A model generated the notes under the pieces. It was not told where the DNA came from. It ran no database searches and was given only the letters and a program-made list of their open reading frames with translations. This document shows positions 31,173 to 61,597 of a stretch of 64,000 nucleotides of DNA, one piece after another. Position numbers and translations under genes: made by a program. The stretch spans positions 1,578,001 to 1,642,000 of the forward strand of contig NZ_CP092831.1 in assembly GCF_022531965.1 (NCBI RefSeq). The letters are read 5' to 3'. Numbering within the stretch: the first letter of the stretch is position 1; every line of letters begins with the position of its first letter. The DNA is from Paenibacillus peoriae (GTDB lineage Bacteria > Bacillota > Bacilli > Paenibacillales > Paenibacillaceae).

Positions 31173-31200
31173 GATATTGATAATTATTATCACTTATAAT
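31173..31200 (+). promoter_or_regulatory. Fur box with -10 element before the ferredoxin-NADP reductase gene
   Basis: TGATAATTATTATCA at 31178-31192 matches the 7-1-7 Fur consensus TGATAATNATTATCA at every defined position. A TATAAT at 31195-31200 follows directly, so a bound repressor would block the promoter. Confidence 0.88.
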
Positions 31201-37377: not shown

Positions 37378-37398
37378 ATTGATAATGATTATCATTAT
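37378..37398 (+). promoter_or_regulatory. Fur box before dhbA
   Basis: TGATAATGATTATCA at 37380-37394 is a perfect match to the Fur 7-1-7 consensus and lies in an AT-rich promoter region 96 bases before dhbA. It should repress the whole dhb operon when iron is available. Confidence 0.92.
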
Positions 37399-48400: not shown

Positions 48401-49906
48401 ACGGCAGAGCGTTTTGTAGCCGATCCGTATGGTTTGCCGGGGAGCCGGATGTATCGGACAGGTGATTTGGCCCGCTGGCGGTCTGACGGCTCGCTGGAGT
48501 ATGCCGGACGTGCTGACCAGCAGGTCAAAATACGTGGTTTTCGCATGGAGCCGGGAGAAATTGAAGCGGTGCTGGTTCGGCATGATGATGTGGCTCAGGC
48601 AGCGGTCATTGTCCGCGAAGATCAGCCGGGGGACAAACGACTCGTCGCCTATATTGTTCCTGTACCTGGCGGTGAACCGCAAGCGTCCAGACTCCGACTG
48701 CATGCAGGAGTCAGCTTGCCTGATTATATGATACCGTCAGCTTTTGTCACGGTATCCGATCTCCCGCTTACACCTAATGGCAAGCTGGATCGTAAAGCAT
48801 TACCTGCTCCCATGCAGATGGCTGCGGGTGGAGGAAGGGGACCGCGAACGCCACAGGAGGAAATCCTGTGTGATTTGTTTGCCGAGACGCTTGGCATGGA
48901 GCGAATCGGTATAGATGATGGCTTTTTTGATCTGGGAGGTCATTCATTGCTGGCTGTGAAGCTGATTAGTAGAATCCGCGAGGCATTGGGTATCGAGTTG
49001 GGCATTGGCAACCTTTTTGGAACGCCAACAGTGGCTGGCCTAGCCGAGCAGTTGAACGTAGGTGCCAGTCAAGGGGCTTTGGACGTTTTGCTGCCTTTGC
49101 GGGCAAGCGGATTGCAAGCTCCGTTGTTCTGTGTACACCCGGCAGGCGGATTAAGCTGGTGTTATGCGGGCTTGATCCAGTCCATGGGCAAGGATTATCC
49201 GATTTATGGCTTACAGGCTCGCGGGATCGCCCGACAGGAGGAATTGCCGCAGACGCTGGATGATATGGCAGCCGATTATATTCGTCATATTCGCACAATT
49301 CAGCCCACAGGACCGTATCATCTGTTGGGGTGGTCTTTGGGAGGGAATGTAGCTCATGCAATAGCGACACAGCTTCAATACGAAGGAGAGACAATTGCGA
49401 TTCTGACCATGCTGGATTCCTACCCAAGCAACCATTTGCCGCTGCGGGGAGGACCAGATGAGGAGGAAGCGTTAATCGCTCTGTTGGCTCTGGGGGGTTA
49501 TGACCCGGATAGTCTGAATGATGAGCCTTTGCGGCTTTCCACCGCCCTGCATATCTTACGAAGCGATGGTAGCGCCTTGGCCAGCCTCAGCGAGGAGACG
49601 ATTTTAAACCTCAAGGATACTTATGTAAATTCTGTGCGTATCTTGGGGGAGTACGTTCCGAGACGGTACAAAGGTGATATATTATTTTTCCGATCTACAA
49701 TTATCCCAGATTGGTTTGAGCCAATTGCTCCGGAAACCTGGCTTCCCTATATTGATGGACAGCTAGAGCAGCATGAACTGGATTGCCGTCATAAGGATCT
49801 GTGCCAGCCGGGACCCTTGGCTCATATTGGAAAACTGATGGCAGCAAAACTATACAGGCTTTCTAAATCAATACATCACAATCGCAAGGAGGAAAACAAA
49901 CCATGA
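42434..49906 (+). CDS. dhbF: Dimodular bacillibactin nonribosomal peptide synthetase DhbF
   Basis: This 2490-residue synthetase has the order C-A-T-C-A-T-TE. C1 has HHIALDG at 139-145 and should join 2,3-dihydroxybenzoate from DhbB. A1 reads D-I-L-Q-L-G-L-I-W-K at the ten pocket positions, the glycine code. T1 has S1076 in GGHSLLG. C2 has HHIVGDG at 1258-1264. A2 reads D-F-W-N-V-G-M-V-H-K, one conservative change from the DhbF threonine code. T2 has S2171 in GGHSLLA. The TE has S2301 in GWSLGG and should assemble three DHB-Gly-Thr units into the cyclic trilactone. No epimerase domain exists. A linker of about 60 extra residues (around 932-992) lies in A1 before its final motif. I chose the ATG at 42434, seven bases after GGAGGG. 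Confidence 0.95.
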
Positions 49907-52815: not shown

Positions 52816-53832
52816 TTAATTGAATCTGGAATATACCTTCCATACTAGCTCACGACGGCTGCTTACATCTGTTTTCAAGAAAATCGCTTTCAGGTGATCC
52901 TGCACCGTGTAGGCAGTAATATGAAGTGCGCTGGCCAGCTCCTTGGTCGAAAAGCCCTGAACAATGAGTTGGACAATTTGTCTCTCTCGTTCGGACCATG
53001 AGTACACCTCAGCCATAAGCGGTAGCATGTCAGTTGCTTTAGCAGCCTCAAACCATACGGCTAGCTGCTTCTGTCCCGTATGCTTCTGTCCGCCTTGCAG
53101 AAGGGTGGCTCTGATGGTTACCCATGGGGCTCCTGCGTCTGTGGAAGGGATACATAGTCGTGCTGGTGCAGTGGCAGTGGATAGCGCTCGCAAGCATACC
53201 ACCCGGACGGGAGCCGGAAGACCGTCTTCATGGATTCCCTCCTGCTGCCGAAGCAACTGTAGCCACTGCTCTGCTACTAAATTGGACGAAATCGGTTTTA
53301 GCTTATCGGAAAGCATGAGAACTCCTGGCTCAAGTCCATTTTCCGTGATCATGGCAGGGGATGGAGATAAACCGACACTGGCCTGACGCAGATGATAGGC
53401 TATGGACGGCGCTAACGCTTCAAGCACTTGTTGCTCTTCCTCGCTGAATACAGGTTTTCCATGATGACGGAACAACGTAAGAAATCCCCAACAGCTCCCT
53501 TTGTACATAAACGGAACACGTAGCTCATCTCCGAATCCGGCGGGTTGCAAAACATCTCTATATCGTGTGCTCCGATCCGGTTGGCCATGTGTAAACCCAT
53601 GTAGCGTCGCTACAGACTGTCCTTCTCGCACCAACTGATCATATTTCATCATATCGGCGTGCAGGTATTCGTATTCTAGTAGTTTGTTATGAATGTCCTC
53701 CACACCCGACTCTGTAAATGCCCCTGTGGAAAGCAGCGTACGCGGATCTACTGAGGTACAGCACGCCGCATCGAAAGTAACCTGAGTACGCAAGCGGTCG
53801 ATTAGGGTGTGCTTGTAGTATGCGTTCATCAT
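52816..53832 (-). CDS. LuxR-family regulator with a GAF-like sensor domain
   Basis: This 338-residue regulator has a GAF-like domain (about residues 20-165, with TYYRDVL-like and LRVPFMYKGSCWGFLTLF) and a C-terminal LuxR helix-turn-helix (about 275-330, WSERERQIVQLIVQGFSTKELA then ITAYTVQDHLKAIFLKTDV). No receiver or AHL-binding domain is present. The GAF part may bind a small ligand. The ATG at 53832 follows TAGGAG. It is divergent from the methyltransferase operon, and a Fur-type box lies in the 170-base gap, so it may control or be controlled with that operon. Confidence 0.85.
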   Translation of the reverse strand: MMNAYYKHTLIDRLRTQVTFDAACCTSVDPRTLLSTGAFTESGVEDIHNKLLEYEYLHADMMKYDQLVREGQSVATLHGFTHGQPDRSTRYRDVLQPAGFGDELRVPFMYKGSCWGFLTLFRHHGKPVFSEEEQQVLEALAPSIAYHLRQASVGLSPSPAMITENGLEPGVLMLSDKLKPISSNLVAEQWLQLLRQQEGIHEDGLPAPVRVVCLRALSTATAPARLCIPSTDAGAPWVTIRATLLQGGQKHTGQKQLAVWFEAAKATDMLPLMAEVYSWSERERQIVQLIVQGFSTKELASALHITAYTVQDHLKAIFLKTDVSSRRELVWKVYSRFN

Positions 53833-53919
53833 TTACTCCTATCGAGAAAGCTGGAGATTCTCAAGCGCGATTATTAAATCCCACATTTATGGGATGGTGG
53901 ATATTCGTATTGTCTTTAT

Positions 53920-53941
53920 AATTGAGAATGATTCTTAATTA
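53920..53941. promoter_or_regulatory. Fur-type box between the LuxR gene and the methyltransferase operon
   Basis: ATTGAGAATGATTCTTAAT at 53921-53939 is a near-perfect palindrome (one mismatched pair). The core TGAGAATGATTCTTA matches the Fur 7-1-7 consensus at 11 of 14 positions, and the TGAGAAT half is a common Fur variant. It lies about 60 bases before the methyltransferase start. Confidence 0.65.
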
Positions 53942-54001
53942 AATCTACAATAAATGAATGGTCTGAGAAGATCAAGGCTAAATGTTTGGAGGAAAGCACA
54001 T

Positions 54002-54763
54002 ATGAGACATACCCCTATTGGAAATACGGACTCAAATCAACCTATGAGCTGGAATCATCCGAATGTGCATAAGTACGCGGATACGATTGCTTTAAAAATA
54101 CCTGGATATGCTCATTTGTACGAGATGACAGACGGTTTGATAGCCGCACAGCTTGAAGCACAAACTCATATTCGAAATATAGATCCAAATGTGCTAATTG
54201 TCGGAGCTGGAGGCGGTCAGGAATTGATTACGCTCGGAGGGCGCCATGATGCATGGTCCTTTACGGCAGTTGATCCCTCTGAGCACATGCTGGATTTGGC
54301 ACGTAAGCGTGTAACACATGCGGGCATCAGTTCAAAAATATCGTTTGTTGCAGGTACGTTGGAAGAGTTGTCTGGAGAACAGCCTGAAGAACAGCGCGAA
54401 AAGCACAGCGAAGAATCATGCAGAGAACCGGTCTATGACGCTGCAACCTGCCTGCTGGTGCTTCATTTTCTTCAAAGCTTGGAAAGTAAACAGGCGTTGC
54501 TACGCCAGATATCTACTCGACTCAAGCCGGGTGCGCCTTTTTGTTTAGCTTCTATTAATGGGAATTCACAGGAGCCTTCTTTTTCCATCCAAATGCAGGC
54601 GTGGAAAGGTCATATGCTGAGCCAGGGCATTTCACTGGAGGATTGGGAACGATTCGCTGCTTCCATCGGTCGTGAGTCAAACCCAGTGTCCAATGCGGCA
54701 ATACAGGAACTGTTGATAGATGCAGGCTTTACCCACATCACCCGGTATTATGGTGCTTTTTAG
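54002..54763 (+). CDS. Class I SAM-dependent methyltransferase, first gene of a Fur-type operon
   Basis: This 253-residue methyltransferase has the SAM loop LIVGAGGGQELITLGG (66-81), an acidic residue ending strand 2 in FTAVDPSEHMLDLARKR, and AATCLLVLHFL as motif IV. Overall it resembles tellurite-resistance/UbiE-like methyltransferases. The substrate is unknown. I chose the ATG at 54002 because TTGGAGGAAAG lies upstream; an in-frame ATG at 53954 has none. It is 39 bases from the next gene, a saccharopine-dehydrogenase-like protein, with which it forms an operon. Confidence 0.8.
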   Translation: MRHTPIGNTDSNQPMSWNHPNVHKYADTIALKIPGYAHLYEMTDGLIAAQLEAQTHIRNIDPNVLIVGAGGGQELITLGGRHDAWSFTAVDPSEHMLDLARKRVTHAGISSKISFVAGTLEELSGEQPEEQREKHSEESCREPVYDAATCLLVLHFLQSLESKQALLRQISTRLKPGAPFCLASINGNSQEPSFSIQMQAWKGHMLSQGISLEDWERFAASIGRESNPVSNAAIQELLIDAGFTHITRYYGAF

Positions 54764-54802
54764 TAAATGCATGGTTTGCAGTTAAAGAGGGAGGGACAGC
54801 TT

Positions 54803-55888
54803 ATGACAAAGGATAACATCATCATCATTGGCGGGTATGGCCATGTTGGAAAAATTGTATGTACAGAGTTAAGTGAAATGTTTCCCGGCAAGGTATTTGC
54901 CGCAGGTCGTAGTCTGGAACGGGCCACTGAATTTAGCCAACGATCGAATGGTAAGATACGGCCCTTGCAGCTTAATATTCATGAGCCGATGGACCCGTCG
55001 ATATTAGAGCAAGCCAAATTGGTAATCATGTGTTTGGATCAGGACAATACGGCCTTGGTACGTGCCTGCCTTCGACATGGGGTGCATTACATGGATATTA
55101 CCGCGAATGCGGACTTTTTGAGTCAGGTGGAGCAGTGTCATCAGGAGGCCCGAGCTCATCAGGCCACAGCCCTGTTAAGTGTAGGATTAGCTCCGGGACT
55201 GACCAATCTGTTGGCACTGCAAGCGACACAGCTCATGGATCAGACGGATGAGTTGAATATATCTTTGATGCTGGGTTTGGGAGATCGACACGGTCAGGCT
55301 GCTATTGAGTGGACAGTAGATCAGATTCATGCCGATTTGGAGGTTATAGAACAGGGACGTCCTGTGATTCGAAAAAGCTTTACTGGCGGAATAGTGGCAG
55401 ATTTTGGTGCAGGAGTGGGTCGTCATCGGGCGTATCGATTTCCTTTTTCAGATCAGCAGACACTTCCTCGTACGCTCAAAGTTCCTACGGTTAGCACACG
55501 CCTTTGCTTCGATTCGCGCTTGACCACTCGGCTTCTGGCAGGGCTTCGGACGATAGGAGTTTCAGGTCTACTCCGACAGCAAACCGTGCGTGATGCAGTG
55601 GTTCGCAGCTTTAGCAAGGTACATATAGGTGGGAATGCTGTAGCGGTCAAGGTAGATGCTCGAGGAACTCTCAATGGCAAGGAGACGAAGGTCGAATGTC
55701 GGCTAAGGGGTCACCATCAGTCTGATTTAACCGCTAAGGCAGCCGTCTTTGCAGCGCTCGCCCTGTACCGTTCAGAACTTCCATTCGGTGTATTTCATAC
55801 GGAGCAGGTTTTTTCATGGAATCGCATGCGGGCTTGGTTAGGGCAGCAAGTAGCCGCAGATATTCAGGTGAACGGACAGCAAGCATAG
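54803..55888 (+). CDS. Saccharopine-dehydrogenase-like oxidoreductase
   Basis: This 361-residue NAD(P)-dependent enzyme begins with the Rossmann motif IIIIGGYGHVGKIVCTEL (5-22), then GRSLERATEF, a mid-domain GLAPGLTNLLALQA (132-145) and the C-terminal segment ELPFGVFHTEQVF. This pattern is the saccharopine dehydrogenase family (C-terminal domain of LOR/SDH type or carboxyspermidine/opine-like dehydrogenases), which form or break a C-N bond between an amino acid and an oxo acid. The ATG at 54803 follows GGGAGG. Paired with a methyltransferase and a Fur-type box, a role in making or altering an opine-like metallophore is conceivable but unproven. Confidence 0.82.
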   Translation: MTKDNIIIIGGYGHVGKIVCTELSEMFPGKVFAAGRSLERATEFSQRSNGKIRPLQLNIHEPMDPSILEQAKLVIMCLDQDNTALVRACLRHGVHYMDITANADFLSQVEQCHQEARAHQATALLSVGLAPGLTNLLALQATQLMDQTDELNISLMLGLGDRHGQAAIEWTVDQIHADLEVIEQGRPVIRKSFTGGIVADFGAGVGRHRAYRFPFSDQQTLPRTLKVPTVSTRLCFDSRLTTRLLAGLRTIGVSGLLRQQTVRDAVVRSFSKVHIGGNAVAVKVDARGTLNGKETKVECRLRGHHQSDLTAKAAVFAALALYRSELPFGVFHTEQVFSWNRMRAWLGQQVAADIQVNGQQA

Positions 55889-60652: not shown

Positions 60653-61597
60653 ATGACAGTCGCTCAACTTCATAAACTTATTAACGGTCAACTCCTGTAC
60701 AATCAGCATCGGAGTTTATTTTATATGCGCGAGGGTTCTGTTCTGTTAGGACCTTCAACGGAAATGACGTACTGGCTGACGCAGAGAAGCTCAGAACTGA
60801 TGCTCATGCTTCAAGGCTTGAAGCGCCAGCATATGTATAACGCTTTTGTGACGGATGTAGCGGCTAAAATACTGTCCCAGTTTGTAAATACCAATCAATA
60901 TCTACATTTTCACACAGCTCATGTGAGGGAGCTTACGGAGCTGTATGATCGACTTTTCACCCGTATTGAGAAACTGTTCCAGAAGAAATTTATAGATAGA
61001 GCAACCTTGGACTTACTGCTTCAGCAGCATTACGGGCATTTGAGAGATTTTTTAACTCGTACCAACGGACGTGAAATGTTTGCTAAGTATGCAGAGTGTG
61101 AGTATACCTTTTGGATACCTTGTGAGGAATATACGCCGGAGTTGCAAGCCAATCTGCTAGGATTGGACATTGCTCGTTTGCAAGAGCCTGTTCTAGATGT
61201 TGGTTGCGGATCTGAGGCACGGTTGGTTACTTATTTACGTGCCTGTGGAATTGAGGCTTACGGAACAGATCGGTTGGCTGAAACAGAAGGTTGGGTCACT
61301 CAAGGAGATTGGTTAGAGACCACCTTTGGGGAACGCACATGGGGAACGATCGTTTCACATATGGCATTCTCCAATCATTTTATACATCATCATCTGAAGG
61401 CAGATGGTAATATTCATGAGTACGCTCGCAAATATATGGAATTGCTTAGAGCCATTCGGCCCGGAGGGAGTTTTATTTACAGTCCGTGCCTTCCATTTAT
61501 GGAAGGGCTTTTGGATGCCCGAATGGGTTATCAGGTAGAGTATATCCAGTCATCTGAAGGTTACAGGGCCACGAAAATAACGCGTATACATTCATAA
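60653..61597 (+). CDS. SAM-dependent methyltransferase with a helical N-terminal domain
   Basis: This 314-residue protein has a helical N-terminal region (1-175, LHKLINGQLLYNQHRSLF and many heptad-like helices) and then a short class I methyltransferase core with LDVGCGSEARLVTYL (about 183-197), YGTDRLAETEGW, and SFIYSPCLPFMEGL. The SAM motif is complete but the C-terminal half is short. No known substrate. The ATG at 60653 follows AAGGAGGAAGC. It is monocistronic, between terminator 60580-60623 and an empty stretch. Confidence 0.78.
   Translation: MTVAQLHKLINGQLLYNQHRSLFYMREGSVLLGPSTEMTYWLTQRSSELMLMLQGLKRQHMYNAFVTDVAAKILSQFVNTNQYLHFHTAHVRELTELYDRLFTRIEKLFQKKFIDRATLDLLLQQHYGHLRDFLTRTNGREMFAKYAECEYTFWIPCEEYTPELQANLLGLDIARLQEPVLDVGCGSEARLVTYLRACGIEAYGTDRLAETEGWVTQGDWLETTFGERTWGTIVSHMAFSNHFIHHHLKADGNIHEYARKYMELLRAIRPGGSFIYSPCLPFMEGLLDARMGYQVEYIQSSEGYRATKITRIHS

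Follow-up and report, generated by a model that had tools for sequence, protein, structure and literature searches.

Fur-type box and candidate LuxR/GAF operator in a conserved composite promoter of a methyltransferase–dehydrogenase operon of Paenibacillus

Introduction

What controls the two-gene operon of Paenibacillus peoriae that encodes a class I S-adenosylmethionine (SAM)-dependent methyltransferase and a saccharopine-dehydrogenase-like enzyme, and does iron take part in this control? The operon is located in a stretch of 64,000 nt (positions 1,578,001 to 1,642,000 of contig NZ_CP092831.1; hereafter the window) of a 5.84-Mb genome, and the closest named proteins are those of Paenibacillus polymyxa and its kin. 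The original prediction, made from the letters of this DNA, regarded a Fur-type box upstream of the operon as the control element. The box is present and conserved, but a second conserved element, the palindrome ATCCCA-N6-TGGGAT located 21 bp upstream of the −10 element TATAAT, had been overlooked. What had been found is likely to be half of a two-input promoter, in which a putative operator of a LuxR-type protein with a GAF domain (LuxR/GAF) near −42.5 is combined with the Fur-type box over the predicted start. We favor, with a probability of about 0.58, the reading that the LuxR/GAF protein would switch the conserved operon on only after iron-loaded Fur has dissociated from the box. No account of the methyltransferase/dehydrogenase pair or of its iron response is found among the literature matches listed.

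Results

Composite promoter of the operon

The features of the operon and its promoter are summarized in Table 1.

Table 1. Features of the operon and its control region. Positions are those of the window. The transcription start is assumed to lie ~7 bases after TATAAT, which gives the distances shown. ORF, open reading frame.
Feature	Position	Strand	Remarks
LuxR-type regulator with GAF domain	52816..53832	-	PF00196 and PF01590; divergent to the pair; predicted activator
Palindrome ATCCCA-N6-TGGGAT	53878..53895	.	predicted LuxR/GAF operator; centre about −42.5
−10 element TATAAT	53917-53922	+	from sequence and from the nearly fixed distance to the palindrome in the loci compared
Fur-type box TGAGAATGATTCTTA	53923-53937	+	abuts TATAAT; spans about −6 to +9 relative to the predicted start
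Class I SAM-dependent methyltransferase ORF	53954..54763	+	PF08242/PF13649; likely start 54002 (alignments)
Saccharopine-dehydrogenase-like enzyme ORF	54767..55888	+	PF03435; likely start 54803, rather than 54767 (alignments)

The dehydrogenase is matched in 35 of 59 related genomes, many of them distant. A scan of species genomes gives 205 relatives, of which the best 80 were used; together with the window, they make 81 loci. These loci were searched for ATCCCA-N6-TGGGAT (≤2 mismatches) followed, after 18–24 bases, by TATAAT (≤1 mismatch). This composite promoter is present in 52 of the 81 loci, with a spacing between palindrome and TATAAT of 20 bp in 1, 21 bp in 42 and 22 bp in 9 of them. 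It is present at every locus that contains the LuxR/GAF gene (46/46, that is, 45 of the 80 named loci and the window) and at six loci without this gene nearby, whereas it is found at none of the 24 loci with a MarR-type regulator gene and none of the five others. Because the palindrome tracks the presence of the regulator gene, it is likely to be the operator of the LuxR/GAF protein. The region around −42.5 is the usual place of class II LuxR-type activators, and an inverted repeat tied to the regulator gene is found near this place, as far as the assumed start holds. Outside the searched regions, the composite pattern gives 10 matches in 3.2 Mb (both strands); seven of them are the same palindromes on the other strand, one is another palindrome at the same locus and two are unrelated. 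The exact N6 palindrome occurs only once in this genome, and the LuxR/GAF regulator therefore likely serves this operon alone. The LuxR/GAF protein gives a near full-length profile match to the LuxR regulators BagY/FevT with an E-value of 6.5e-44, but with a score of 150 bits against a cut-off of 700.

Conservation of the Fur-type box in relatives

The box was searched for in relatives as the 15 bases directly after TATAAT, with a pattern written as TGAGAATRATTCTTA or TGAGAATNATTCTTA and ≤2 mismatches. By our estimate, which assumes equal bases, a given place fits a pattern of 14 fixed bases with ≤2 mismatches about three times per million. The box is found at the same place in 27 of the 52 composite promoters, with no mismatch at the 14 fixed bases in 18, one in seven and two in two; its central base is A in 15 and G in 12. 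The promoters that carry it span Paenibacillus, Brevibacillus and Bacillus, and the dehydrogenases of box loci outside the P. polymyxa group are only 46–58% identical. In the six close relatives of the P. polymyxa group in which the LuxR, methyltransferase and dehydrogenase genes are all found, the box is present without exception; five boxes are identical and one has its free central base changed. Conservation in relatives, which the original prediction had named as a check on itself, is thus found in these six and in about half of the composite promoters.

When 21 representatives, picked to thin near-copies, are aligned, the mean majority share is 0.94 for the box, a value inflated by the selection of box rows for their match, 0.59 for the 21-bp spacer and 0.55 for the next 25 bases. 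Presence or absence of the box, mapped onto a tree built from the 81 dehydrogenases, requires 8 changes, at least three of them forced by well-supported branches, compared with a mean of 22.9 for shuffled labels. The box is old or has been regained several times, with loss in whole clades. The 21-mer TATAATTGAGAATNATTCTTA (≤1 mismatch, T at position 14) gives 13 sites in 148 genomes of the family; 12 were examined, and 11 of these are located at dehydrogenase modules and one (L174) elsewhere. The sequences show two elements at near-constant spacing, their spread over three genera and an association of the palindrome with the LuxR/GAF gene.

The view that the box is a novelty of the P. polymyxa group was dropped: 13 of 13 loci from other lineages with all three genes lack it in the first sample, but the wider set shows it in Brevibacillus, Bacillus and other Paenibacillus. 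In a clade of 11 loci (L133, L135, L136, L140–L144, L148, L150, L152), an inverted repeat, GAAATTAGAC...GTCTAACTTC, replaces the box directly after TATAAT. One member of the P. polymyxa group (L051, genome G015) has a decayed module, in which the LuxR and dehydrogenase genes are matched in pieces, the methyltransferase gene is not found and there is no box.

Fur-type sites in the genome

In the 19-bp stretch ATTGAGAATGATTCTTAAT at 53921–53939, 8 of the 9 position pairs about the centre are complementary, and the 15-bp core of the box has 11 of the 14 bases specified in TGATAATNATTATCA. The description of this site as a near-perfect 19-bp palindrome with 11 of 14 Fur-consensus bases, located between the divergent LuxR/GAF gene and the two-gene operon, is accurate in sequence and coordinates, and the site has the 7-1-7 form of a Fur-type box next to TATAAT. 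Within the window, the core (≤3 mismatches) is matched three times against a mean of 2.94 expected, which is no excess. In the whole genome, the motif TGAKAATNATTMTYA gives 22 distinct sites, with 20 matches per strand against one per strand for the reversed control, and 46 against 8 when one mismatch is allowed. Eighteen of the 22 sites are symmetric, with C at position 14. The other four are asymmetric, with T14; these are the box studied here, L065, which is inside a long ORF, and L069 and L071, the promoter position of which is uncertain. A count in one genome is no proof, because the box is among only four asymmetric sites of 22. Thus, judged by this single genome, the site is non-significant, and it is its conservation across species that makes it convincing as a sequence element.

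Loci were obtained for 13 of the 18 symmetric sites, and a plausible ORF is close by at 10 of the 13. According to Pfam, these ORFs encode five PF01497 binding proteins, a FecCD permease, a flavodoxin, an AraC-type helix-turn-helix protein, a Pyr_redox_2 reductase and a short-chain dehydrogenase/reductase (SDR; gene at 37 kb); all ten families are compatible with iron genes. No iron-type ORF is found close to the remaining three of the 13 (L056, L064, L072). Two symmetric sites are in the window, one at 31178–31192 before the Pyr_redox_2 reductase gene and one at 37380–37394 before the SDR gene upstream of the non-ribosomal peptide synthetase (NRPS) region.

A Fur equivalog is found in the genome above the cut-off of the profile search. 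In kin, flavodoxin, FecCD and Pyr_redox_2 genes also have TATAAT directly followed by TGA[GT]AAT, and TATAATTGATAATGATTCTCA before a flavodoxin gene, for example, is a Fur-type box at the same promoter place as the box studied here.

Methyltransferase and dehydrogenase

The dehydrogenase matches PF03435 with 45.3 bits against a cut-off of 25.1, and no PF10100 match is found in it. Its model (pLDDT, predicted local distance difference test, of 91) gives carboxyspermidine dehydrogenases, lysine dehydrogenase and saccharopine reductases as the top Foldseek matches over the whole length; the fold is common to these enzymes, with a TM-score of about 0.7 for carboxyspermidine dehydrogenase and saccharopine reductase, and the identity is 11–19%. 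The methyltransferase model (pLDDT 84) is nearest to CysG/BelI, 3dtn and CmoA-type enzymes. The carboxylate O-methyltransferases CysG/BelI are its best structural matches and also give a profile match, at ~21% identity. These enzymes have a His-His-Asp metal site (PMC11408123). In the methyltransferase of this operon, the first His is aligned and the second is aligned to Phe, so that the full metal motif of CysG is not retained. The two enzyme kinds named by the original prediction are thereby borne out, and both enzymes fit a small amino or carboxy compound.

An aminobutyrate transferase was considered for the methyltransferase, and neither domain, profile nor structural matches support it. 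The nicotianamine synthase (NAS) family PF03059 has no match in the genome, including the methyltransferase itself, in a search in which the control matched in Methanosarcina only; the earlier statement that no nicotianamine-synthase-like gene is present agrees with this result, and a staphylopine-type pathway was rejected, since no NAS-family gene is found. PF10100, the staphylopine-type opine dehydrogenase family, likewise gives no match in the genome, but its controls gave no match either.

In this strain, the methyltransferase frame stops earlier than in relatives (window 54740–54800), adjoining a run of T; a strain variant and a sequencing error are candidate causes. Counted from 54002, the protein lacks ~18 residues in comparison with P0121 (271 aa), its nearest relative. 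Relatives keep intact copies, the frame of which runs into the dehydrogenase start, and this overlap suggests coupled translation.

Gene neighbourhoods in relatives

In the stretch examined of the 26 named box loci, the methyltransferase gene is present in 15, a gene of the major facilitator superfamily (MFS) cluster in eight and a cluster for an NMT1-type ATP-binding cassette (ABC) importer in four. Five of the MFS genes are in the same gene run as the dehydrogenase gene (L100, L109, L120, L125, L132), one is a fragment (L155) and two are apart (L096, L147). The importer genes lie between the promoter and the methyltransferase gene in L086, L088, L111 and L147 (Pfam-checked in L111). Two clostridial MarR-type loci (L112, L129) pair the dehydrogenase with an unrelated methyltransferase of PF00891 (Pfam run on L129), which fits a joint pathway of the two enzymes.

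Genes of the FecCD-cluster permease are located within 10 kb of the dehydrogenase gene in 10 of the 80 named loci, from about five clades (Pfam-checked in two): L087, L091 and L095 from one clade, L092, L101, L147, and L135, L141, L144 and L152 from one clade without the box. This genome contains 18 full FecCD genes in 11 places, from which we estimate that ~4% of random genes lie within 10 kb of one. The FecCD neighbourhood is a lead, short of proof.

Discussion

Proposed mechanism and points against it

The methyltransferase and the dehydrogenase, for which a saccharopine-reductase fold is predicted, are encoded by one conserved operon. The LuxR/GAF protein would bind the 18-bp palindrome as a class II activator and Fur would occupy the box next to the −10 element, and the resulting gate would be 'signal AND low iron'. 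More tentatively, the dehydrogenase may reduce an imine, or it may form or cleave a secondary amine built from an amino acid or amine and an oxo acid or aldehyde, the methyltransferase may modify the same compound, and this small molecule may be exported by the MFS pump or taken up by the NMT1-type ABC importer in some relatives. The operon is likely to be iron-gated, but with a second, local input, and its product could be assigned equally to stress defence or to metal uptake.

Several results weigh against this mechanism, or against a dedicated iron metabolite as its outcome. The box is absent from 25 of the 52 composite promoters, among which are the 11 promoters of the P. amylolyticus/xylanexedens clade without exception, and is lost or replaced in whole clades. 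Neither this methyltransferase nor the composite promoter is found at any of the 24 MarR-type dehydrogenase loci, and four of the 10 loci with FecCD neighbours belong to a clade without the box. All 27 boxes have T at position 14 and none has the symmetric C, so that the box lacks the symmetry of most other motif sites of the genome (C14 in 18/22); this conserved asymmetry is something that Fur alone does not explain. Finally, the box matches at 12 of 14 bases TTAGAATNATTCTAA, which in kin precedes genes judged by eye to be sufC-like and ahpC-like.

Alternative explanations

The alternative that survives best, possible but rather unlikely in our judgement, is that the module is a detoxification system or a response to antibiotic or aromatic stress, which Fur would prime during siderophore production as for catDE. 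An MFS gene is present at 11 of the 24 MarR-type loci (the one checked, at L097, is of the DHA2 type, above the cut-off), and nitroreductase (5), DinB (4) and glyoxalase/dioxygenase-family (2) genes are neighbours in the 26 named box loci, which supports this reading. These neighbours vary between clades, however, the fold of the dehydrogenase is that of amine-forming dehydrogenases, and the MarR-type loci, in which this methyltransferase is not found, include two with a methyltransferase of another family. The precedent comes from Bacillus subtilis, in which catDE has a Fur box behind the transcription start, binds Fur weakly and is controlled jointly by Fur and the chemical-sensing regulators CatR and YodB (PMC6212828). 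It resembles the operon studied here in this arrangement, but its enzymes are different, and CatR and YodB are repressors, whereas the LuxR/GAF protein has a predicted activator site.

It is also conceivable, though unlikely, that the box is the operator of PerR or of a second PerR-like protein and that the operon answers to peroxide or to the balance of iron and manganese. The core AGAATNATTCT is common to the box and to TTAGAATNATTCTAA at the sufC-like and ahpC-like genes mentioned above, and two of the four Fur-family genes in the genome score best against PerR models, although below those cut-offs. On the other hand, TGAGAAT, the left half of the box, is also a half-site in five of the 18 symmetric genome sites. 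PerR-type sites carry T at position 2, as do the sufC-/ahpC-like sites of kin, whereas all 27 boxes have G there, which speaks against PerR. As a separate observation, TTAGAATTATTCTAA is located beside TGAGAATCA-type half-sites in 11 loci (L200, L202, L203, L206, L208, L211–L214, L217, L218); this region precedes a sufC-like ORF (by eye) in 8 of the 11 and looks like a conserved iron/oxidant control region.

That the box is the preferred initially transcribed sequence of LuxR/GAF-driven promoters, with no protein site of its own, would account for its constant contact with the −10 element and for its conserved asymmetry but is highly improbable, because the palindrome without the box at 25 of 52 promoters indicates that the box is separate from the LuxR element, and the 11-locus clade has a quite different inverted repeat in its place.

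Comparison with known systems

The clusters for staphylopine, pseudopaline and bacillopaline resemble this operon in that a SAM-using enzyme is encoded beside an opine-type dehydrogenase, in a metal-type box and, for some relatives, in an MFS exporter or ABC importer. They differ from it in that no NAS-family gene is found in this genome, the dehydrogenase belongs to PF03435 instead of PF10100 and the importer is NMT1-like. PchK, which resembles the dehydrogenase in its annotation, reduces an imine of the siderophore enantio-pyochelin. Unlike the dehydrogenase studied here, PchK belongs to a siderophore NRPS cluster. PchK, from the enantio-pyochelin cluster of Pseudomonas Pf-5, is an annotated saccharopine dehydrogenase with a transcript that increases under iron limitation (PMC3377617), and iron control of a protein with this annotation therefore has a precedent.

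With the composite promoter, a guess about one site becomes a defined two-element promoter, which is shared by three genera and singles out a family of enzymes without known product. It predicts iron-dependent expression in strains with the box and none in strains with the same palindrome but without the box, which form a natural control set. If this is true, the iron response of plant-associated Paenibacillus gains a branch. The conserved asymmetric base in turn offers a way to test how Fur-family proteins tell sites apart. A bolder proposal, which we consider quite improbable, is that the operon represents a widespread, undescribed system of Bacillales for an opine-like, possibly metal-binding metabolite, made by a route unrelated to CntL/CntM. 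The enzyme with the saccharopine-reductase fold would join an amine and an oxo compound and the methyltransferase would finish the product, which would be made only when a chemical signal and iron shortage coincide, with an exporter or importer encoded in the same operon of relatives.

Other genes around the operon

The NRPS ORF, which corresponds to the putative bacillibactin island of the original prediction, ends at 49906, upstream of the methyltransferase/dehydrogenase pair, and the ORFs between this end and the pair include a gene for a Band_7-domain protein and a gene without a Pfam match. A few kb downstream of the pair, positions 60653–61597 of the window encode a second protein with a methyltransferase domain, which is a weak match (PF13489, 20 bits, below the cut-off).

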